From Macrocystis pyrifera (Eukaryota > Sar > Phaeophyceae > Laminariales > Laminariaceae), in NCBI GenBank assembly GCA_031763025.1, contig JASSKH010000005.1, positions 7,685,514 through 7,749,513 on the forward strand: a DNA stretch of 64,000 bases, written 5' to 3'. Of this stretch, positions 453-58,999 are shown piece after piece. Both the position numbers and the translations under genes were made by a program. Each line of letters opens with the position of its first letter. The stretch's first letter is position 1. The notes below the pieces were generated by a model. The model saw only the letters and a list, made by a program, of their open reading frames with translations. It made no database searches and was not told the origin of the DNA.

Positions 453-3400
453 CTACCCCCCCCTGTCCCGTCCCGTCCCTCCCCTCCCCCCCCCCTCTCT
501 CTCCCCCTTCTTTTCTTTCTCCGTTTCCTCGTCTTCGACGCTCCACTTGTCCTCCACGTTAGTGACGTCCAGTTGTAGAATGTCCGCTCTGCAGTTGAGG
601 AGGGATCCAACAGAGGGGACGGTTCGCCCGAGATCCCCGTGCACGAACTCCTTGATGTAGGTACCTGTTCGGTTATGGTGGTGATGGTGGGGACGGGAGG
701 GGAGGGGGGGTTGGTGTGGTGTCGAAGGCGAACGTGAAAGCACCGGGGGGGGGGGGGGGGTGTACTAATGCCATACATGGCCGTAGTCGTACTGCCATAG
801 ACCCTCGCTCGTATCGTAACAATGGCGGTACGGAGCACGTCGGGTTTGCACCGACTATCGGCAGACATTGCGTGCACCAAGCGCGAAGCGCCGTGGGGTG
901 TTCAGCGAGTCGCATGAAGGGGTATCCTGCATCCTACTGTGAAGGGCTTGTGAGGCAGGCGGATTTTCTTGCATATGGATGACAGCGTGAAATGAGGGAG
1001 TGGGGGGGGAAGGGGCGTACTTATTTGTTGCTTGCCTTAGTCGTTTGACAATTGACCATGCATCCCTGTCGAGACGGAGGACCGTTCCTACTCCTAAAAG
1101 AGACACCTCCAACAATTAGGCGCTCATTACGTTGTTCTCATATATGGTATTACAGAAACTTTTGGCTAATCTTATCCCCTTCCTGCTTGGCCGCCTGTGG
1201 CCACCATCTATCTCCTAGGATAGCGATCGTTTTCTCGCTGCTATCTAGCGTATCAAACTCATCCATGTCACATTCGTCTATTTTCCTCATATCCTCTTCT
1301 AGCACATCCCGTTCCTCCTCCTGGCTACTGGTATACCTCTTTCTTTTTTCTGGCAGGTCCAGGTCACCTACACGAAAGCGCAGTTTCAGTGTTTTCGCGA
1401 AGTCCATTGGGCCGTGCAAATACGTTTTCATTCCTATTCCTTCCCTCAATCCCCCGTGTATCTCTTAAGTGTTTTTCCGATTCCACCTTTTCTCTTAGCG
1501 CTGGCCTCTCCCTTCTTTCTATCATTTCTTCTATTTCTGCCTTGTACCTCCCAAACATCCCGGCGGAAATCACTTCTTCTTGGTTTCCCCCTATATTCTT
1601 CCATACTTTCTCAACTACGCCATCCTACCTTATTCCAGCTCGCTTTTTGGCTACTTTTTCCGATACAGCTCTATCAACTATGACTGGCAACCTCTTCGAT
1701 GGCATGTTCCTTACTTTATACTGCCAGTTCAACTTTCTCATGTCTCTATTTGTCTTGAGTGGGTGCATTCCCATTTCTGTTCTTAGGCCATCTCTTACGG
1801 GAGGGTTTTGAAAACCGAAAAAACTTGCCCGAAACTGTGTTTTATACGTGCTTTCACGTATTTTACACCCGGAGTCCGACCAAATCAGGCTCGCTCTTCT
1901 CGGAATACTTGCAGTCTTTTGGGGAGAGGTATCTGGACCCGTTTTTCTTTTCTCCAGGGGAGTTGTTCGAAGTTTTTACGATGTTGTCATCTTCAGACAA
2001 GAAAATCAGCAAGGTATTTTCAGATATATTTCGACAGCCAAAAAAATGGCCTCTTTTTCAGATAAATCGCGTCCGAAACTGAATAGAGGAAACTGGAGTG
2101 TATCCACATATTTTCAAACTGCTATCCTGAAGAAACGGCAAACGGCGTTGCATGCCTCTCGCAAAATGGTTGGTGGGACTCCAAGAAAAGAGTGCCCGAT
2201 TCGCCCGTTTCCCTGGTCATACACGCCTGCGAAGGTGCTGAAACCTCGACTTCCAGAAATCAAAACCGGTTTGCCATAAGAGATGGCCTTAATACTGTAT
2301 TACTAGTCGTACTTGACCATCTTGGGATTTTTTTAGCTGCTGTCAGCTGTACTGTTTCCAACTGTCTTACGAGTTTCGCGTTCCCTTCCCACACTTCTCC
2401 TGCACGTTCTAGCTTTGGTACTATCACATGCATCAGGATACATCTCTTAATCCTAGTGTCAAGGTGCGAGTCTGTTAGGATCGCACCCATATTGCCTACT
2501 TGTGTTTTACCCTTTCCAATTACTTTTGCTATATGTGTATCCCAAGAGCAGTATTTTGAGATCTCTACGCCAAGGTATGTATACTGGTCTACGATCTGCA
2601 ATTCATCTTCTCCCCACTTCCAAATGAAATTTATCGGGTTCACCTTATCTTCGTTACAAACAACTACTGCGCATTTCTTGCCGTTCGCCGTCACCCTCCA
2701 TTTCCTAGTGTATTCTAGCGCCTTCTCTATTTGTTTCTGCAATCCTTCGGGTGTTTCTGATATCCCCACGAAGTCATCCGCAAACGTCAATCCTTACACC
2801 GTATCTTCCCCTACCGTGACTCCCTGCCTTGCTGCTTCGACTGCTACTATCAGGTCGTTAATATATATCTTGAAAGGGTTAGGTGACAACGTACATCCCT
2901 GTGCAACTCCTTGTAAAATATCAGCATACTTCGATATTTCCCCGTCCAGCATCACCGCACTTCTCGCACATTCCGTGATCTTTTTCATCATTCTCCAAAT
3001 CTTTCCTCGGATTCCTATTTCCCACAGTTTTTTCCACAATCCATTTCTCCATTCTGTGTCGTAGGCTTGCTGTACATCTAGAAAGAGACGGTACGTTGTT
3101 AGTCCCGCGTCTTTCCTACCTTGAATAATCTTACCTAAGTTGTACACATGGTCTACGCGGCTACGGTATGGCCTAAACCCTGCTTGCCCTTCGCTTATCG
3201 TGTCTTCCTTCTCCATCATCGTTCCCATTCTATCGTTCAAAATCTTGCAAAAAAAAATCCTACTGTGCTTAGTACCGTTATCCCTCTATAGTTCCCCGGG
3301 TCAGCCTTATCTCCTGTCTTGAATAAGTTTACTACCACTCCTCTCCACCTCCTCGGTGCGTACTCGTTTTTCCATATCCAGTTATACAACATATAACCAT

Positions 3401-4774
3401 AGTCGAAAGCATTATTTCTCCCCCGTACTTCATAAATTCATTCTCTATTTGATCTGCCCCTGCTGCCTTTCTATTCTTAAGTTCAGCTACACACTTCTTT
3501 ACTTCTTCCCTTGTGAACTCTCTCTGTAACCCTTCCGAACCACTGTCTTCCTTTTCTGATGCATCTGCGTTCGCCTCTGCCCACGTGTTGATTTCCTTCT
3601 CGAATTCTGCGTCGAACGTTTCGTTGGCTGTGGGTGTTCGTAGTTTACGGTAATGCTCTACTAGTACTTCTCTTTTCCCCTTCGAAATACTAACCATTTT
3701 ACCGTTCTGTGCTCTTGAGGTAGCTATTCCCGTGTCCGCCTCTCCTGCTTGTTTGCCCAGTATCCCTTTTATCCCTACCCACATGTGCTTCATCCCACCC
3801 TCAAAGTCTTCATTCGTTTATTTACTACGTCTTTCCATATCCCTTTCTTCTTCTCTACCATCTCTTTTACTTTCTAGCTATCTACCATCTCTCTTGCTTT
3901 CTTTCTAGCTATAGCATATTCCTCCCATTCTGTCGTAGGATGTATACCTTGCGTGTGCCTTTCTTCTTACTCTTATAGCCTCTTTCACTTCCTCATCCCA
4001 CCATTTTACTGCTGTGTTGCATACTACCTGGTACCAACTTCTTCCCTATTACTTTACTTGCTGTGGTCTTGACCAACTGCGCCCATCCTTCTATTATCCT
4101 AGCTCCTGCATTTTCCCTCTTTATATCATTTCTTGTTGTACCTATTCTTTCCAATAGCTCGGAAAATTGTTCTGCATTTTTGCCCATCTCTTCTTGGAAC
4201 TCTTCCCGTTTCTTTTTTACTTCTACTTTATCTATGCTCCATCTGAACAATTTCCTACCTCGTCTATGTTTCATAACTCTCGTCTGTTGACTGTCTGTCC
4301 ATATTAGACAGTGATCCGTAGTTCCTACGCCCGCTGCGCATACAGGTAGTTCTGTTTCCTTACCACTTCCATTTTCTACTACTATAAAGGATACAGCATT
4401 CTCCCTTTTGTACGCACTGTCTAGTCCATTATGGTTCTGCCTTTTTACTCTGTCGTTCAACTTCTTCATCTCGTTGTGCTTAGGGAGCTTTAACATATCT
4501 TCCCCATTCTTATTAGTTGTTACTTCCCGATATTGTCCAATGTTCTTATTCAAGGGAGGGGGGGGGCATGGGCGGCAAGATACAATAGGACACAATCGGA
4601 GGAAGGAAGGACAACTGGACATACGTGACAGGAGCTCGCGCGCAAACCTTTTACCAATTGGTCACGCCATCGGCGGTCCATGCGGCAGAATCGTGACCAA
4701 AACACGACGGCGCCACCAAAAACTACAGCGGCGAAAACACGACGACGACTACGACGAACAGAACGTCACTCCAC

Positions 4775-16440: not shown

Positions 16441-16460
16441 TGTTATATATATATTATATA

Positions 16461-16950
16461 TGGGTTGGGTTGGCGTCGGTTGGCAACGACACTGTAAAAC
16501 ATGCCGCTCACTACGTCAGCTAGACATCCAGTTTTTTTTTTTTTTTTTTGGCGGTCGCCCACAGCTGGTCGTCTAGTTAGATCATTTGTGCGAAGTAAAT
16601 AACCTTTACTCTGCACAAGGGAATTGATCATATCACGTAGTGTTCAAGGTAAGGCACCCAAGAGGCAGTTACATAGTACTCCCATTGCTGTCTCTGGAAG
16701 TAGCCACACCGGAAATTAAACCAACTCATTGAAGCTGTCATCCATAGGCAAGTCCGCCTCACAAGCGGTTCTTAGGATGCAGCTCACCCTTCATGCGACT
16801 CGCCCAACACCTCACGGCGCTTCGCGCTTGATGCAAGCAATGTCTGCCTGGTCGGTGAAAACCCGACATGCTCCGTCCCGGCATCGTAGGGATGCGAGGG
16901 TCTATGGTCATACGACTACGGCCATGCATGATCGAGTACCCCCCCCCCCC
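16461..16950 (+). mobile_element. C-tailed SINE-like element, full-length copy
   Basis: 5' end TGGGTTGGGTTGGCGTCGGT, an internal T18 run (about 16,532-16,549), GGAAGTAGCCACACCGG, TCATCCATAGGCAAG, GCGCTTGATGCAAGCAATG, CTCCGTCCCGGCATCGTAG, and terminal GAGTAC followed by a run of C. No coding. Its last ~70 bases align with the LINE 3' end (see 1,010-1,090), which suggests mobilisation by the LINE. Confidence 0.9.
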
Positions 16951-17328: not shown

Positions 17329-17437
17329 TACGGGGGAACCTAGTAAATAGGATCTACGGTACACAAAAAACCTATATATTTACCTATTTTTACTATAAAT
17401 AACAAAATTTGGTCCCATTTACCACGGTCCCCCGTAA
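17329..17437. mobile_element. MITE-A, copy 6
   Basis: Reverse orientation to copy 1, arms TACGGGGGAACCTAGTAAAT and complement, with a four-base expansion in the centre (TACTATAAATAACAA). Confidence 0.88.
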
Positions 17438-20670: not shown

Positions 20671-20945
20671 TAGTAGAATTATAGCTTAACGTGCTGTAAC
20701 CGTTTCTGACTGGCTCCGCGCGACCCCCCCCCCCCCCCCCCCTCCCCCCAGCCCCCCGCCCCGGCGTGTCTTCTGGTATGTCGAAGAGTCCAAGTCAGGG
20801 CCGACAAGAAAGAGAAACGCCTCTACGACTCGCTCGCTGTCTAACAGACCTTGACGCATGTCGTACGTCCTATACACGTCCTACACCCCCCCCGCCTCTT
20901 CCCCTTAGTTTTCTGATTCCTCCAACCACGTTTTCCTGCACCGCA

Positions 20946-21222
20946 AGTGGCTACACCGGAAATTAAACTAAACTGTCATCCATATGCAAGTCCGCCTCAC
21001 AGGCGGTTCTAAGTAGGATGCAGCTCACCCTTCATGCGACTCGCCGGATACCTCACGTTTCGCTTCGCGCTTGGTGCAAGCAATGTCTGCCTGGTCGGTG
21101 AAAACCCGACACGCTCCGTCCCGGCATTGTAGGGATGCGAGGGTCTATGGTCATACGACCACGGCCATGCATGAGATCGAGTACATCTCTCCTATCGAGT
21201 ACACCCCCCCCCCCCCCCCTCT
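20946..21222 (+). mobile_element. C-tailed SINE-like element, 3' half
   Basis: It starts at CTACACCGGAAATTAAAC and ends ATCGAGTAC A then a C run at 21,204-21,220. It lacks the 5' half with the poly-T. Flanking text TTCTGATTCCTCCAACCACG occurs on both sides (about 20,911-20,930 and 21,235-21,254). The repeated flank spans about 60 bases (CTCTTCCCCTTAG to CTGCACCGCAAG) and may be a long target duplication or a local duplication. Confidence 0.88.
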
Positions 21223-21291
21223 TCCCCTTAGTTTTCTGATTCCTCCAACCACGTTTTCCTGCACCGCAAGTCACGCCTCCCAACTCACTTG

Positions 21292-32800: not shown

Positions 32801-33685
32801 CTCCGGCCCTCACGTTCAGAACGCGAGGAAGGAGACAGACGTTACTCGTCCAAGTTCCCGTTTCGCTGCGCAACAGAAAAAACAAAGTACCCATCGCGTA
32901 CGTCACCGTTGGGTGGGAGGATACTCCTCTCAACTCAGCAAAAAACGCGACAAAAAACAAAACTGGAACTCCTTACGTCCGTGCACCCGGACCTGTTATT
33001 GTACCTCCCCCGTCCCTCGCTTTCTGCCCCCGACCCCCCGCCTTGCTTCACGCTTGGTGCAAGCAATGTCTGCCTGGTTGGTGAAAACCCGACGTGCTCC
33101 GTCCCGGCATCGTAGGGATGCGAGGGTCTACGGTCACACGGCAATACATGCCCCCCCCCCAGCTCCGTCTCGGAAGGGATGCGTGGTCAATGGTCAAATG
33201 ACTAAGGCAAGCAACAAATGAGTACCCCCCCCCCCCCCCCCCCCCCCCCCAACCCCCCCCCCCCCGTTCCCTCCCTCGCCCCCCCCCCCCCCCCCCTGCG
33301 TCCAATCCTTTGCCACCACGATGCTTATATATACCACGTATGTATTTATGAGGAGAACGAACGGTTGCTTCGTGGGAATCACAAAACGTTCTGGGCATGG
33401 CGTCGTGAAATGATTTTGCTGCTTACCGCAATATGTCCCTTGCTACCTCCACCGATCCCGTGAACGAGCTGCACTCGGGCATGATGGGGAGACAAAAACA
33501 AAACGCGAATTTTTCGCGCACGACGGGAAGGAAAAGGGGAGGAAAAAAAAGAAAAAAACACGCGATTTTGTGCACGATGAGGGCAAGGAAGAAAGGAAAG
33601 CGAGGCGGTACACAGGAAAAAAAACACAAACACATATTGATTGGAGGGGAAGGGAAGGAGCCGGGCGGTGGCGGCGGCAGTGAGT

Positions 33686-35391: not shown

Positions 35392-38300
35392 CGGGGCGGA
35401 GGGAGATGCGAATGGGGGGGGGGGGGGGGGGGGTGTACCTCTCCTACGGTTGGACCAAGAGGCTCGTGAAAAATAGGAAAATGACGGCTCGGGTTCTGCG
35501 ACGTATCATGTACTTCCGTGACCCAAACATTATGACTACTCTGGAAACTATCGCTGTGCTTGTGCTTGTGCTTGTGCTTGTGCATGCGCTTGTGCTCTGT
35601 CAGACACACTTTTGCGGGGCATGGAGTAATCGGCTGCTCAAGTTTTGGAGGAAAGAAGGAACGAAGGAAGGAACAAAGGGACTAGCGGACGCCCGTCGGA
35701 AGCAGTTGCCGGTAGCAGTAGCACCGTACACAAACATCAAGGTTGCCCCGTTCAAAAATGTGGGTCGGGCGGCAATGACACACCCACACGCCCCCGTATT
35801 TTCCCACTCATCACCGCATCGCGGTGGTCTCGGTCCCCGCCCTGCCCCCGGTCCCCTCCCCGACCATCCCTCCCTCCGCCCCCGGCACGAACAGGAAGCG
35901 CACTCCATTTCGTACGGTGGCCATAGAGAACAACCTTATTTCGTGCTGGTCATCAAAAACAGCCCTACTTCGTTCTGGTCACCATACATGCCAACTCCGA
36001 AAGGAGTTGCACAGACAGGTAAGCTTTTTTGCGGTACAGCATGATTTTCGTGTAGAGCGCGACGTCTTTGCCGGCAATTTCTGCTATGCATGAGGTCTTC
36101 TCACCCGCGGCCTGCGTCGAGGCCCCGCGTCGACTCCACCATCCTGAGGACAAACGTCCGGAAAACAAAACTACCGGTGTATGCCAGGTGTACCCGGGTG
36201 CACCCCATGCACTACGGGGGGCCATAGTAAACAGGACCTACGGTACACACAAAAACCTATATACTTGCCTATTTTTACTAACCGTATTTGGTCCTATTTA
36301 TTATGCCCCCCCGTACTAGGAGTGCACCTACAGTAGATATTTCTCAAGTCTCCTCACTACAGGAGGTCTATACCAATTAATGCCTTCTACGGGTGGTGGC
36401 TTATTCTCTAGAGTATTCGCGCATGAGGAGCTCGAAATATATTCCCCCGAAACATGACATCGAGAAACGTTTTGTTCGAGCAACGCGACCAACATCTCGA
36501 TGCACTACGTGGTTCCCAAAAAATATCGCACTCCTCCTCCGGTGGTAAAAATATAACGCACTCAATTCGATCGGACAACAAAAAAAAGAGCATAAAAAGT
36601 GCAACCCCTTCTAAAATCGACCCTGTGAGAAAACTGAACCTGCACCCCGATGAATAGCAAAATATCGAAAAAATAGTGTAAAGAAAACGGAAACGATATT
36701 CCAGCGACACCTACGACGGGTAAATCCTCGGTCAAGCCCCCCCCCCCCCCCCCCCGCCTAGGAAATTAAACTAACTTGTTGAAGCTGTCATCCATATGCA
36801 AGTCCGCCTCACAAGCGGTTCTTAGTAGGATGCAGCTCACCCTTCATGCGACTCGCCGGACACTTTACGGCGATTCGCGCTTGGTGCAAGCAATGTCTGC
36901 CTGGTCGGTGAAAGCCCGACATGCTCCGTCCCGGCATTGTAGGGATGCGAGGGTCTATGATCATACGACTACGGCCATGAATGAGATCGAGTACATCTCT
37001 CCTATCGAGTACACCCCCCCCGCCTAGGTCAGAAATGTTTAGGCGAAAACAAATGCTGTCACCCTATGCGTAAAATACAAGGAACGCTGGGTCCTCATAT
37101 TACTGTATTGTCTAAACGGTCCTCATGTTTTCCACCTATTACGGGGGTCCATAGTTAACGGGACCAAATTTTGTTAGTAAAAATTGGCAAATATATAGGT
37201 TTTTATGTACATCATAGGTCCTGTTAACTATGGACCCCCGTAATATTACGGGGGAGCATATTAAGTAGGACCTATGGTACAGACAAAAACCTATACATTT
37301 ACCTATTTTTTTAATAACAATATTTGGTCCTATTTACTATGGCCCCCCGTGATAGAGTGCTATAAGCTTTGAGCCATGCCCTACAGCAGAACGTGTGCAC
37401 CAGGTACCTCTTGCGTTCCGAAATGTAAAGACCGTTTAAGCACTAGTGTCACACGTAAAACTTCCTCGTATTGCGGGACAGAGTGGTGTACAAACAGTAA
37501 CTGCAGCCGCATTGCATAGAACAACCCCAGGGGAGAACCACAATCTTGAAGGTAGCGCTCAAGCGTGAATACTCACCTCTAGCAACGTAGTACCGAAGAA
37601 CGGCAGAAAAACAAAACGTAAAAACGTTTTTTTTTTTTTTTTTTTTTTACCCCCCGCAGATCCCGAGCACGAAAACCCGGCATACACAACGGTGATGAAA
37701 AAAGAGCCCGAACCAAAACAAACACTACATGTTCAGCAACAATAAATATACAGTAGTTCGTTCGTGTCAGAGCCTGAACAGAAAAGCGTGCTTTTGTACT
37801 GCTCGTACAGCAGTCGCGGGAGTTTGTGAGCATCCTGTTGTTGTTGTTGTTTTTTGCATCAACTTATGACGAATCTAGTTCGTTGGTCAGAAGAGAAGCA
37901 TGAGAACCCTTGAGCCCGGCGAGCTCCCTCACCTGATGAACCCACTCCCCCTGCGGGTGTCGGGGGTCCGGGCAACCTTGTCCAGCCCTGCCAAGCGGTA
38001 GGCACGGGAGGAAGGTCAGGGGCACCGAGCGTTTATGTTCGTGGGATATGGGGTCGAGGGTATACGAAGCAGGGCCTTTCGGGCCTTTGGGCTATTGGGA
38101 CATGGGGTCGAGGGTGTAGGACTTTTTGGTTTCTGGGAGATGGCGGCCGATGGTGGTGGTGGCGGTTGCGGCCGCGGCGGCGCTTTCATGTGCGAACGGG
38201 AGGATGAAAAAAGCAAAAAACGACAGCGATGACAACCGCGAGCGCGACGGTGACGGCGAGGAGCAGTAGCACCGAACCGTAAAACCACCAAACGCACTGC

Positions 38301-41300
38301 TGTGCTGCAGTAGTACTACAATATTACCGTGCCTTAGTATGAAAGTACCCTCTGCTGTGGTATGCCCACGCCGCGCCTTTGAAACAAGTCACACGACTAC
38401 GTGTCGTAGTCGTACCTGAAGGTACAGCGGTGACAACACAAAAATATCTGCGTTTAGCGGCTCTTTCTGAGCTCACTGCTCGTCGAGCGTACAATAAAGG
38501 GTACATGCATTCACATATTACGAAAATCGGTGGCCGATGTCATGCTCAATCGAACGAACAATCTTTTACTCTTCGTGGAGCAGCCGCTGTAACTACGAGC
38601 GAACGTGAGTGTTTCTAATCTCGACGGCGCGTTTTTTATGGACCCCCACTGAATTTTGGCTGTCAGGCGGATCTACGTACGACCGCGGTGATCTCCGACA
38701 AACAAAACACTCCCCACAAAAAATACAAAAAACCTGCATCAGAATCCGCGGACCACCAGCACAGCGGATCCAGCAGACCACAAAAGGCAACACTGGGGGC
38801 AGGACAAACGCCGGGCCACCCTCGCGCACACACAAGAGTGTCACGGCTGAAGGACAGCGTCACGGCTTCTGTGCGGTACTGGGAACCGCCCGAAGTAATT
38901 TTTTGATCTCCATCCTGTGTTTAGTATGCCTGGTGCTCTTCTTCCGCATGCGCCGAGACCACAGCCCTTCGGCTATCGCATCAGCGCAGGCAGAGAGCAC
39001 GGCGGGCTCATAAAGGCTGTGCGCACCCAGTGTCTCGGAAGGGAACGGCTTGCTGATCTATGCCCCCTGCTGTCTTCTCTGCCGGTGTCTGATGTGCTTG
39101 CTATTGTGCGATGCCTTCAACAGAAACTTCTACCTCCGAACAGTATTTATTTACACTGACGTGGGCACTCAAGGGAGTTCCTACTGCTGCTGTACGAGTA
39201 CTCGTACAGCGGACGTATTTTGATGTGTAGCAAACCAAGAACGGTACAGCTGTTCGCCGAAGCGCAGGACGGGTAGGGATGACCGCTCACCCACTGACGG
39301 GGTGGCGAGCAGATAAACGGGGGCCAATGGGGTGGGGGGTGATCGGCGTACGAGTACTCGTGTCGCTGTTTCATTTCCTGTTTTTCGTATCCACGTTGCT
39401 TCATTTTTGTTTCCATTTTTCCCCCGTTTTTTCACCACCCAACGCACACAAGTTGACAATTATACATACCATGCATGCAAGAGTGTTTAGCAACAGCTAT
39501 GCTATCTCATAGAGTACTGTCGATCGAGCCGTACGCGGCTCGATCACGAATACCTCGGCATTGACTGCAGTGTGCTATGTACGGCACCCCCTGATGGAGG
39601 CGTTATATGGTACCTTTGTGGAGGCGTTATATGGTGCCTCATGGAGGCTTGCGATACCTCTTGGAGGCGTTAAAGTGGAGGGACTATGGTATATACTTCA
39701 TGGAGGCGTTATGACACATCAGGGAGTTAAGGACGTTTACCGGTATGTACACGTCATGCGCTCGCCCCCTTTTTTGTATATAGGACACCCAAAGTAACGT
39801 AAAAGTGGGGCAGGCAACTTGAAGAAAATTCCCTTTAGGACCGCACTCCCGATTGTGGAGACAAATCACTTGTAATTAGAGTCAGAATTAGGTGGCTGTA
39901 CACTACAGTGCTAAAAGGGTCAACACCAAACACGCGCAGAAACTGATCCAAGCTTTGCCTGTAGAAGGAGGCAACTTGTATTTAGCGGCAGCAGCAACAG
40001 CAGGCAGCAGCAACAGCAGGCAGCAGCAGCAATTGTAGCCGGCCCCAGGCATAGACCCATGCTGCCCATATCTGAAGGGCAGTGCACCCCGCCCCCCCCC
40101 CTCGCCTTTCGATATATGGCATCTCACCGATCTCTCCGACGAGAGCGCGAGGATTTTCTTCGAGCAGTGCCGTCAGGTCTCGCAGCCAGCCCTCGGACCT
40201 CGAGTGGGCGTTCCTGACAGGCGTTTCGCGCGCGCGCGGGGGGGAAGGTCACGTTCTACTGTAGAAGAAAAGCATTAGACTAGCCGGTTTAGATCCGCAG
40301 CCAGCTATGTTCTAGCGCGCAAAACCGCCAAGTTCTAAATTCACGTTATCTAATCTCTTCACTTCTACGTACCAGGTACTGCCGTAATACCGTATCACGA
40401 CAACGGCAAAATTGGCAGGCGGAGGTCGTTGGCGTCGCGGCAACATAGCGCATGTTTCTCTCGTGCATTCACCGTCCCTCGTGCCGTTTGCAAGCACAGC
40501 AGCAGCAGCAGTAGCAGCAGCATCAAGCAGAGCTTTATAGGCTAATACGACACACCTTCACATGTTTATACTACCGTACGTACAGCACTGCACTGTAGAC
40601 AACAGGCATCAATGTAGTGTACGAGTCTGCTGCCGGTGCTGCTGCAAATACGTACCGCTATAATACCGGCGAGTAAGAAGGGACGCGGGGCTGGAGGGAA
40701 ACGTGCGAAGTCCAGCCATTAGGACTGAATTCCCGTTTTGGGGACAATCTACTTACAATTTGAGTGGTTTGTCCCCAAAGCGGAACTGCGTTTCTAAAAG
40801 GACATAACCCCACCCCGCAAGGCCCCCTACTGTGGGTGGGATTGGCGTCGGTTGGCGACGACGCTGTAAAACACGCCTCTCACTGCGTGACTAGACAGCC
40901 AGGGTACCGTTTTTTTTTTTTTTGGCGGCTACCACCGCTGGCGGTCAAGTTAGATCATTTTTGTTTTGTGCGGGGAGAACCTTTACTCGGCACAAGGGGG
41001 ATGATCGTATAACGCAGTGGGTATATGGTGAGGCACCGACGAGGCAGTTACTGTACATAGCAAACCCAATGCTGTCTCTGGAAGTGGCCACACCAGAAAC
41101 TAAATCAATTCATTCATGCTGTCATCCATATGCAAGAAAATCCGCCTCTTCTTAGCAGGATGCAGCTCACCCTTCATGCGACTCGCCCAACACCTCACGG
41201 CGCTTCCGCGCTTGGTGCAAGCAATGGCTGCCTGGTTGGTGAAAACTTGACGTGCTCCGTCCTGGCATTGTAGGGATACGAGGGTCTATGGCCATACGAC

Positions 41301-41494
41301 TACGGCCATGCATGATAATGAGTACCCCCCCCCCAAGGCGGGCCCACCGGTGGCATCCCACCTATTCACCCAACCACCCACCCAACCCACCCATCCACCC
41401 ACCAAGGATGCAACCCTATGCCGAACTGAAAGAAGGGAGCAGCTTCGGGAGAAGCAGCAGTAGCACCGCCCGCAGCAACACCAGCAGCACCAGC

Positions 41495-48177: not shown

Positions 48178-48210
<33 letters not shown>

Positions 48211-49200
48211 ACTCATTTGTTGCTTGCCTTAGTCATTTGACCATTGACCACGCACCCGGGGTAAGGAGGTGGGGGCGGGAGGAGTCGCGCCCGTGATGTG
48301 GCGGGGATGTGTCTTGTTTTGTGTCGCCTGACGTCCCGAGAGCGTGCCTTTGTTTTGCTTGTTCGTGTGTTTGTTTGTTTGTTTGTTTGCCCCGACCCAC
48401 GCCCGTTGGCGGTCTTGGGGGCGTGTGCGCTGTAGTATCTATACATTTCCTCCTGCCCCCTCCCCTCCTGTTCTTGGCTTGCGGGACGCTTTCGTCCAGT
48501 TGCGTACGGTAGCCCGATTCTCGTTTGCGCGCTCTTAACCCGCATGCGTTTCAATCCTTGCTTAAACGTCAACCCCCCTTACCCCTTCCGTCTCGAAAGG
48601 GATGCGTGGTCAGTGTCCAAATGAGGCAAGCGACAACTGGGTACCCCCCTCCCCCCCCCCCCCTCCTCCCCCTATCTATATCTCTCCAGCCGGACGACTT
48701 ACTCGGCATGGGAGTGTTCGAAAGCTCGCCGACCCCGCGCGTTCCAGCACCGGCAGCAGCGGCGTCGCCCGCAGCAGCAGGGGTGGGGGCGGCGAGAGCT
48801 ATGCCGAGGTCTCCACCCATGCATCCCGCCCCGATGGGCCAGATGGGGGCGGGAGGTGGAGGAGGCGGAGGGGGGGCCGGGGTTGGTGGTGGGTTTGGGG
48901 TGGGTTCGCCTTCCATGGGCGTTCATCGACCAACGGTGAGAGTTGAGCTAAGAGAAGGGGGGGGTGGGGGGGGGTGGGGGGGAGGTGGGGGGGGGGGGGG
49001 CGTATTTATTTGTTGCATGCTTTAGTATCGTGTCCATTGACTACGCATCCCTTTCGAGACGGAGCGGGGGGGAGAGAGATAGCAGGGGGAGTTGTGGCGG
49101 CGTTATTGTTGCTGTTTTTGTTGTGGTTGTTTATGTGCCGCGGTACCCTCTCGTATTGGTGGTCCCCCTCGAGAACGTTGAGGACGAAATCAGGAAGTGG
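46090..49200 (+). CDS. DIX-like domain protein with Gly/Pro/Ala-rich tail (both ends incomplete)
   Basis: Exons with agreeing phases: 46,090-46,256, 46,838-46,930, 47,925-48,031, 48,690-48,935 and a 27-base exon at 49,174-49,200; a 42-base Gln-rich exon at 49,693-49,734 is possible. The first two read RYFIPADGDDPAHPNVFQLP, VEKYFPLPGRYHFRFKKKF, then DAFVWVDMTD and VPACDGVFTAKITRL. This order (a short start, YxFxFK, then VWxDxxD, LP-like, and a KV/KI-R end) matches DIX domains of Dishevelled and Axin. DIX domains polymerise head to tail to build signalling assemblies. The tail holds GDDLLNMG and PDDLLGMG at the start of consecutive exons, then poly-Ala, poly-Gly and a PMGQMG stretch; DLL-type motifs often bind clathrin adaptors, but that is only a suggestion here. 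The start exon and the C terminus were not found. Confidence 0.6.
46320..46640. repeat. Array of ACCTTGTA / TACCAGGTA palindromic words in the DIX-gene intron
   Basis: Many variants of TACCTTGTA, GTACCATGTA, TACCAGGTA and ATACCATAT are packed at about 10-25 base spacing. The same words are scattered at 8,405, 12,085-12,145, 15,535, 17,650-17,700, 44,535 and 45,650-45,735. Confidence 0.75.
47212..47377. mobile_element. 165-bp inverted-repeat element in the DIX-gene intron
   Basis: The ends TAGTAGTCCCTCTATAGTGCC and GGCGCTATAGAGGGACTACTA are near-complements (about 20 bases). The interior has a further GCCGG/CCGGC pairing and no coding. MITE-like; only one copy in this window. Confidence 0.7.
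48178..48262 (-). mobile_element. LINE-type 65-bp 3' unit with a C32 tail
   Basis: On minus: GGGTGCGTGGTCAATGGTCA, AATGACTAAGGCAAGCAAC, AAATGAGTAC, then a C run (G on plus 48,178-48,209). It lacks the CTCCGTCTCG start found in other copies. In a DIX-gene intron. Confidence 0.82.
48589..48680 (+). mobile_element. LINE-type 3' unit whose C tail supplies a splice acceptor tract
   Basis: TCCGTCTCGAAAGGGATGCG, GTCAGTGTCCAAATGAGGC and GACAACTGGGTAC, then a C-rich stretch to 48,672. The acceptor of the next DIX-gene exon (AG at 48,688-48,689) follows at once. Confidence 0.8.
48999..49065 (-). mobile_element. LINE-type 65-bp 3' unit
   Basis: On minus: GCTCCGTCTCGAAAGGGATG, GTCAATGGACACGATACTAA, GCATGCAACAAATAAATAC, then a C run. 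G runs flank both sides on plus. Confidence 0.82.
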
Positions 49201-51396: not shown

Positions 51397-51546
51397 GGGG
51401 GGGGGGTACCCATATCAACCATGGCCGTAGTCGTAAGACCGTATGCCCTGGAGGGGAAGGGGGGGGGGGGGCGTACCCATTGGTTGTTTGCCTTGGTAGT
51501 GTGACCGTTGACCACGCATCTCTTTCGAGACGGAGCCGGGGGGGGT

Positions 51547-51622
<76 letters not shown>

Positions 51623-52256
51623 ACTCAATATCATGCATGGCCGTCGTACACGTATGACCATAGACCCTGGAGCAGGGTGGGGGGTGGGGAAGGGGGGAGG
51701 GGGTTGTACTCATTATCACGCATGGCCGTAGTCGGGGGGGGGGGGGGGGGGGGGGGGGGGCATGCTCTTTTGTTGCTTGCCTTAGTCTTTTGCCCATCGA
51801 CCACGTATCCCTTTCGATACGGGGCAAGGGGGTGGGGGGGGGGGTTGTACTCGATATCATGCATGGCCATAGTCGTATGATCGTAGACCCTCACATCCCT
51901 ACGATGTCGGGACGGAGCGCGTCGGGTTTTCACCGATCAGGCAGGCGTTGCTTGCACCAACCGCGAAGCGCCGTGAGGTGTTCGGCGAGCCGCATGAAGG
52001 GTGAGCCGCATCCTACTAAGAACCGCTTGCGAGGCGGTCCTGCACATCAATGACAGGTTCAACGAGTTAATTTATTCTCCGGTGTGGCCACTTCCAGAGA
52101 CAGCAATGGGGGTACTATGTATCTGCCTCGTGAGTGCCTTACCATAAACACTATGTGATAAGACCATTCCCCTTGTGCGTAGTGAAGGTTCTCCACATCA
52201 TCACACCAATGGTCTATAAATCCATTGCCAGCTGTGACCGACCGCCAAAAAAGTCG
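51397..52256 (-). mobile_element. Pile-up of C-tailed elements, all in one orientation
   Basis: On minus and read from the right: a long SINE-like copy (52,256-51,842, ending TCGAGTAC then C), a LINE-type unit (51,828-51,758), SINE tails at 51,735-51,700 and 51,672-51,622, a LINE-type unit (51,537-51,470), and a SINE tail (51,450-51,397). Each ends in TAC or a variant and a C run; one run is C75 (51,547-51,621). SINE and LINE tails alternate. Confidence 0.85.
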
Positions 52257-58100: not shown

Positions 58101-58497
58101 ATTTCCTGTCTCATGTGGGCAACAGTCTCAACCTCCCCATCCCCCTTGAATATATTATTCATTCATGTACCAGGTGTGCTTTTCTGATCTCTTTGCGTCA
58201 CCTGTTCGTATTCTGTTCCATTTGACAATTTTTTCTTGCTTCTCCCCATTGCCCTTTGGTTCCTTGTTTCCTGGTCTGGCTTGTGTTGTTTGTGTTCTCG
58301 TACCTGGTACGTTGGCATTTCACTTGCTTTTACCCATTCACTCGCGACTATGTCTGTCTCGGTTTCTCTCGGTCTCAGTCTGCGATCACATAATAATGAG
58401 TAGCTCTCTAGGAAATGGAATCAAGATCGGACACTGGGGTGTACTGGTGTAGTTGGGTAGAATTAACGGTTCAATGCCAAGACAACACATATAAAAG

Positions 58498-58999
58498 TTG
58501 GGTTGGCGTCGGCTGTCAACGACACTGTAAAACATGCCGCTAGCTACATGAGCTAGACAACCAGGGTACATACCGTTGTTTTTTTGGCGGTCGCCGCAAG
58601 TGGCGGTGGAGTTGTTATTAATAGATAATTTACGCGGGCGGAGAAATTTATTTCGCACGAGGGGAATCATCGAGTACCTCACGTAGTGTTTAAGGTAGAG
58701 CACCCACGAGGCAGCTAGATAGTGAGCCCATTGCCGTCTCTGGAAGTGGCCACACCGGAAAATGAATTAACTCACTGAGTTTGTCATCTATATGCAAGAA
58801 AATCCGCCTATAAAGCGGTTCTCAGTAGGATGCAGCGCACCCTTCATGCGACTCGCCCAACACCTCACGGCGCTTCGCGCTTGGTGCAAGCAATGTCTGC
58901 CTGGCCGGTGAAGACCCGACGTGCTCCGTCCCGGCATTGCAGGATTGCGAGGGTCTCTGGTCATACGACTACGGCCATGCATGGTAATGAGTACACCCC
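58498..58999 (+). mobile_element. C-tailed SINE-like element, full-length copy, abutting LINE copy 2
   Basis: 5' TTGGGTTGGCGTCGGCTGTC, a short T7 run (58,578-58,584), GGAAGTGGCCACACCGG, GCGCTTGGTGCAAGCAATG and terminal AATGAGTACACCCC. The recognisable LINE sequence begins only about 20-25 bases downstream in the same orientation. Confidence 0.9.

Follow-up and report, generated by a model that had tools for sequence, protein, structure and literature searches.

At one end of a 64,000-nucleotide stretch of the Macrocystis pyrifera genome (hereafter the window), a LINE read on the minus strand ends in a C-rich terminus, and copies of a shorter element elsewhere in the window end in C as well. 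A sequence-only reading of this DNA had proposed that the two share their 3' end, as a SINE and the LINE that moves it would, and had offered two routes to the terminal Cs, templated slippage on C or insertion into C-tracts. The question raised by the locus is whether the C run is a tail made during insertion or the site into which the elements insert. With a probability of roughly 0.8, we hold that two elements, a LINE encoding an apurinic-type endonuclease together with a reverse transcriptase and a non-coding element of about 525 bp bearing the LINE tail, insert by target-primed reverse transcription into C runs, in one orientation.

The assembly used for genome-wide counts has 223 contigs and 537,376,219 bases; for giant kelp, the genome paper reports 537 Mb and a total of 223 sequences, namely 35 scaffolds plus 188 contigs (PMC10498591). 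That paper describes an assembly made from PacBio reads with Canu (PMC10498591), and the C-run lengths depend on it.

The LINE and its coding capacity

The LINE in the window is a 5'-truncated, decayed copy on the minus strand (1,017-4,552) whose tail occupies 1,090-1,017. Two reverse transcriptase pieces (RVT_1) are recognised in it, at 3,285-2,797 (6e-13) and 2,793-2,263 (3.3e-05), and no endonuclease match was found in this copy. Its 5' edge was set by eye, where similarity to the protein of a better copy, L097, begins. The copy is broken at about 1,785-2,291 by an insert of about 500 bp. The edges of this insert form a perfect 13-nt inverted repeat (AGGCCATCTCTTA), and it looks like a non-autonomous DNA transposon.

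In L097, Pfam matches above the cut-off place an apurinic-type endonuclease (Exo_endo_phos, PF03372, 9.6e-11) together with a reverse transcriptase (RVT_1, 1.6e-29) in a single frame of 1137 amino acids. The end of this frame is overlapped by another of 257 amino acids, for which there was no Pfam match. The element has its 5' end upstream of position 390 of this locus and runs to 4,806, a length of more than 4.4 kb, and a C run comes after the GAGTAC that closes its tail. By sequence, the relatives of the LINE in the PDB are R2 and LINE-1. The 3' coding part, in the C-terminal part of L097 and in the LINE consensus, reads CPCGKAIESRxHIVGEC; it gave no Pfam match, and we take it to resemble the C-terminal zinc knuckle of LINE proteins.

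A reverse-transcriptase query gave 5153 first-look candidates, 150 of which were scored. A 361-bp stretch of the LINE 5' region is 97-100% identical in 40 scored copies (of 344 candidates), which points to a LINE that has probably been active recently. Both families are 5' truncated, the shortest copies measuring 26 nt in the SINE and 30 nt in the LINE.

The PF00078 loci L001-L008 were considered as the partner LINE and rejected, as they belong to another LINE family at about 32% amino-acid identity. This second family carries RVT_1 in near-identical copies (mostly 95-99% amino-acid identity) and, by the look of them, may itself have been active recently.

The SINE and the tail common to both families

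The element of about 500 bp described in the sequence-only reading is real: 15 copies, selected for being full-length, have a 5' end region in common and measure about 500-525 bp, giving a short non-coding element with a defined 5' end. In all, 34 of 122 copies cover 480-525 nt of the consensus. Near full-length copies lie on the plus strand of the window at 16,451-16,939, with C runs ahead of the 5' part and behind CGAGTAC, at 40,835-41,325, ending in GAGTAC and C10, and at 58,489-58,994. A 5'-truncated copy on the same strand (20,945-21,203) has an extended 3' end (GAGTAC...CGAGTACA). This copy, the one at 36,762-37,013 and others form a subtype with the extended end GAGATCGAGTACATCTCTCCTATCGAGTACACCC, in which the terminal motif GAGTAC occurs twice. 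We found no Pol III head (tRNA, 5S or 7SL derived) and no Rfam match in the SINE; the only tRNA detected by ARAGORN, at 17,332-17,431, is outside the SINE copies.

The two 3' ends had been said to align over about 70 bases, a claim that the lack of a significant alignment would have undone. The consensus tails align over 74 columns with a score of 51, whereas 5000 dinucleotide shuffles gave a mean of 12.6 and a maximum of 26, so that the SINE 3' end is indeed common to the LINE 3' end. The single window copies of the two tails align over 32 bases with a score of 32 (maximum of 5000 shuffles, 27). All the sequence words that had been read at the LINE end are present on the minus strand at 1,090-1,017, but the plain run of C said to follow them is not: AATAAGTAC is followed by GCCCCTTCCCCCCCCAC, a G preceding the Cs and the C run being interrupted. 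From the common tail, we infer that the LINE enzyme probably moves the SINE.

Both consensus tails have a similar fold. A conserved RNA structure was nonetheless dropped, and we make no structure claim for the tail, because the structure we drew, which pairs 92.8% of cells against 32-44% in slid versions, was derived from those same sequences, because covariation is no better than in shuffles (0.068 vs 0.067), and because RNAalifold returned only 5 pairs at -0.84 kcal/mol.

C runs behind the 3' ends

Exact tail matches number 2712 for the SINE (22-mer) and 3180 for the LINE (24-mer) genome-wide, with 0 for the reversed control patterns. On the forward strand, to which this count was confined because a variable gap inflates the reverse counts, CCCC lies within 3 nt past the tail in 1136/1378 SINE and 1399/1572 LINE ends. 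Ends that continue otherwise, the observation that was to speak against the proposed C-run terminus, are a minority, at 242/1378 for the SINE (about one fifth of SINE ends being without a C run) and 173/1572 for the LINE. Within the window, a script detected 27 3' ends (19 SINE and 8 LINE), a count that is not exhaustive, as it lacks the SINE whose end is at about 16,939. The C-rich 3' junction of the window LINE (1,000-1,016, minus strand) reads GCCCCTTCCCCCCCC on the sense strand of the element.

The base right after GAGTAC is family-specific, being A in 71/102 SINE and G in 29/44 LINE copies and mostly C in the others. Such a base is most simply RNA-coded, so the RNA probably extends past GAGTAC, and the A or G before the Cs suggests that the RNA may itself end in Cs. 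The near-identical loci L042 and L044 differ in the length of their C runs. Judging from this pair and from the family-specific base, the runs may be lengthened further by slippage on the C-tract or by an RNA with terminal Cs, and assembly error may have the same effect.

These same observations would fit a C run that is a tail, comparable to poly(A): the RNA would carry or gain Cs, or the enzyme would slip on a short C template, and insertion would take place at sites free of C runs. The C run stands directly behind GAGTAC in most copies, the family-specific base implies RNA-coded positions beyond this motif, and near-identical loci have runs of unequal length. We nevertheless consider a tail of this kind unlikely, given what is found on the other side of the elements.

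C runs in front of the elements

Genome-wide, a sense-strand C6 lies 12-42 nt upstream of the SINE 5' motif in 1621/2017 copies, and a G6 in 6/2017; these counts include duplicated loci, so that 2017 copies are not 2017 independent events. For a closer view of the flanks, we used the fetched loci and the window, in which 209 copies reach the 3' end, 182 after removal of identical 25-nt upstream flanks, and 175 with enough flank (115 SINE and 60 LINE; duplicated loci and arrays among them mean that not all are independent). At the 5' boundary, a run of at least 6 C was found no more than 20 nt away in 73/115 SINE copies, namely 16/19 full-length and 57/96 truncated ones, and in 36/60 LINE copies. 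A run of at least 6 G was found there in 0/175, and random positions in the same sequences have C6 in 2.7% and G6 in 2.9% of cases. No C6 lies upstream of 42/115 SINE and 24/60 LINE copies. Since the LINE consensus covers no more than the final 1.5 kb, the 5' boundary assigned to some LINE copies, that in the window included, does not mark the real end, and this should dilute the LINE figure.

Because truncated copies show the C run too, it is not part of the 5' end of the element. The flanking C runs are on the sense strand always in the 175-copy sample and nearly always genome-wide, and LINE and SINE copies mostly have C runs on either side in a single orientation, the pattern of microsatellite-targeting elements. 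A tail predicts neither the C runs before most SINE 5' ends nor those before truncated copies. With Cs both before 5' ends and behind 3' ends, the data favour, of the two routes proposed at the outset, insertion into C-tracts, and the C run looks like a landing site rather than only a tail.

The C runs in front might instead be the 3' ends of earlier insertions, piled up in tandem without any C-tract in the original target. This finds some agreement in the 28/115 SINE and 16/59 LINE copies whose upstream C run follows another 3'-end motif, and in chains such as that at 51,473-51,826. We regard it as quite improbable, since the upstream C run is free of any such motif in 48/115 SINE and 26/59 LINE copies, and since insertion into the C run of a neighbour is already C-tract targeting.

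Target-site duplications and C-tracts in the window

Among all the duplication candidates, only one is convincing alone. The truncated SINE at 20,945-21,203 lies between two exact 54-bp copies (20,895-20,948 and 21,218-21,271). On the plus strand, the upstream stretch (20,886-20,948) reads C8, then G, then the 54-bp target-site duplication, and the downstream one (21,204-21,271) reads C16 straight after the SINE and then the same 54 bp. The C8G ahead of the upstream copy is again unpredicted by a tail. Taken with the C runs before 5' ends, this duplication argues for insertion of both elements into C-tracts, in a single orientation.

Shorter candidates, singly weak, are in line with a C-tract target: a LINE in L048 (C16 then GTCTTTCCTGT), a SINE in L085 and the truncated SINE at 36,762-36,994, which has C19GCCTAGG upstream (36,737-36,762, plus strand) and C8GCCTAGG behind it (37,014-37,028). 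Just upstream of the truncated 5' end of the window LINE is a C-rich stretch (4,554-4,566, minus strand; CCCCCCCCCTCCC on the sense strand) that by eye resembles the 3' flank CCCCCCCCACTCCCT. This LINE has C9TCCC ahead and GCCCCTTCCCCCCCC behind, and a comparison by eye of the former with the after-side GCCCCTTCCCCCCCCACTCCC gives a possible duplication. The candidate targets of L037 and L033 contain only CCC, and L033 has the longer run on its 3' side, both of which would suit a tail.

When 151 copies were scored (nine loci seen as duplicates having been dropped), at least 7 non-C letters matched past the C run in 7/151 copies against 53/4246 control pairs, which is a slight excess, and 2 of these 7 consist of the GAGTAC motif only. 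A first scoring gave no separation from the control, at 18/171 vs 47/513 for score 6. In most of the 151 copies no duplication beyond the Cs was detected; in most copies any duplication would fall inside the C run and escape notice.

Comparison of flanks with the fetched sequences returned element-in-element matches and no orthologous or paralogous empty site among the matches listed, and no copy had both flanks inside the body of either LINE family (the query carried 69 nt of 3' flank). C-tracts with no detected element do exist. The window contains 64 C/G runs of at least 9, where an independent-base model expects about 0.5; the script placed 24 behind the 3' end of an element and 3 ahead of a 5' end, leaving 37 next to neither, although some of the 37 (16,939; 44,515; 57,554) touch element pieces that the script missed, and no empty site matching an insertion turned up among the matches listed. 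The pattern might be an artefact, with homopolymers collapsed or expanded or a genome C-rich by chance, for which the PacBio and Canu assembly and the 64 runs of the window would speak. We find this hardly credible, given the scarcity of C6 at random positions, the lack of G6 at element 5' ends, the 1621 C6 against 6 G6 genome-wide, and a strand-specific placement that cannot come from length errors.

Proposed mechanism and comparison with known systems

For insertion into C-tracts, we propose that the endonuclease would nick the G strand, inside or at the edge of the C/G tract, and that the freed G-rich 3' end would pair with Cs ending an RNA of the form ...GAGUAC(A or G)CCC. Reverse transcription would start at the paired Cs and often stop early, leaving copies as short as 26-70 nt, and the product would be a C run, the element and a second C run. 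The LINE enzyme would serve the SINE in the same way. Initiation of target-primed reverse transcription within C-tracts would account for the paired C runs, the constant orientation, the truncation of 5' ends and the duplication.

SINE/LINE pairs with a common tail are established, as are tails made of short repeats, of which (TAA)n and (TGTAA)n are described as taking part in slippage (PMC3747384). As in the "stringent" pairs, for example eel UnaL2 and its SINE, the short non-coding element of kelp bears the tail of a LINE; unlike in UnaL2-type pairs, it terminates in a C run and has C runs next to its 5' end as well, and no tRNA, 5S or 7SL head was found. Microsatellite-specific non-LTR retrotransposons have likewise been described, such as Togen in (TG)n and some HERO elements (PMC4640811). 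The kelp elements resemble these in inserting into a simple repeat, whereas the cited Togen and HERO elements have a restriction-like endonuclease, the kelp LINE has one of apurinic type, and its target is a single-base C/G run. According to a 2026 paper, only R1 and Tx1 among the clades with an apurinic-type endonuclease contain site-specific LINEs (PMC13295347). The kelp LINE shares the endonuclease type of these clades and differs from their site-specific members in its brown algal host and in its C-tract target.

LINEs homing to simple repeats are thus already known. Among the matches listed for openly licensed PMC full texts, none describes a LINE homing to single-base C/G runs, or any such LINE in brown algae. 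Targeting of C/G runs would limit gene damage, yet spread homopolymers that assemblies and markers handle badly. Structurally, C/G runs are an unusual target and are able to adopt quadruplex-like structures. Given thousands of tails and LINE 5' regions so alike in the 40 scored copies (97-100%), the kelp pair makes a practical system for simple-repeat target choice by a LINE.

Short tail copies and arrays

One class of LINE copies, 61-66 nt long, makes up 22/60 and begins at (G)TGCTCCGTCTCG, where the common tail has its base; CCCC lies at most 15 nt upstream in 19/22. A length scan of the 36 LINE copies of 25-205 nt placed 22 within a single span of 6 nt, whereas 20,000 simulations gave at most 9. 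Genome-wide, tails with the (G)TGCTCCGTCTCG start have CCCC at most 6 nt in front in 365/2171 cases. Five to six LINE copies are near 206 nt, duplicated loci among them. The 122 SINE copies show no length peak at the place matching 61-66 nt of the LINE; the short ones cluster at 25-47 nt (21/122) and 90-109 nt (12/122).

In the window, a 64-nt LINE-tail copy lies between C runs at 33,162-33,225 (plus strand), and a 49-nt copy at 48,209-48,257 (minus strand) is followed by a C32 run. The chain at 51,473-51,826 (minus strand) is made of short SINE copies (29-48 nt) and LINE-tail copies (64-65 nt), with C runs of up to 75 between them. We tentatively suggest, at somewhat less than even odds, that the pair makes its own landing sites: each insertion would divide a C-tract and leave one on either side of the element, thereby multiplying these tracts and helping to fill the kelp genome with them. 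The copies of about 65 nt would be the smallest unit, either left by reverse transcription halting at a defined point or existing as a micro-element in their own right.

Two arrays of SINE pieces were also seen. Locus L082 (G000:C126:2462700-2465300) has three exact SINE tails 218-229 bp apart, so that pieces of the SINE 3' end, with C runs between them, form a short tandem array. On the minus strand of G000:C125:1504381-1622785, the SINE 5' motif is found repeatedly, often at intervals of about 11 kb, a spacing that suggests a tandem array with a unit of this size.
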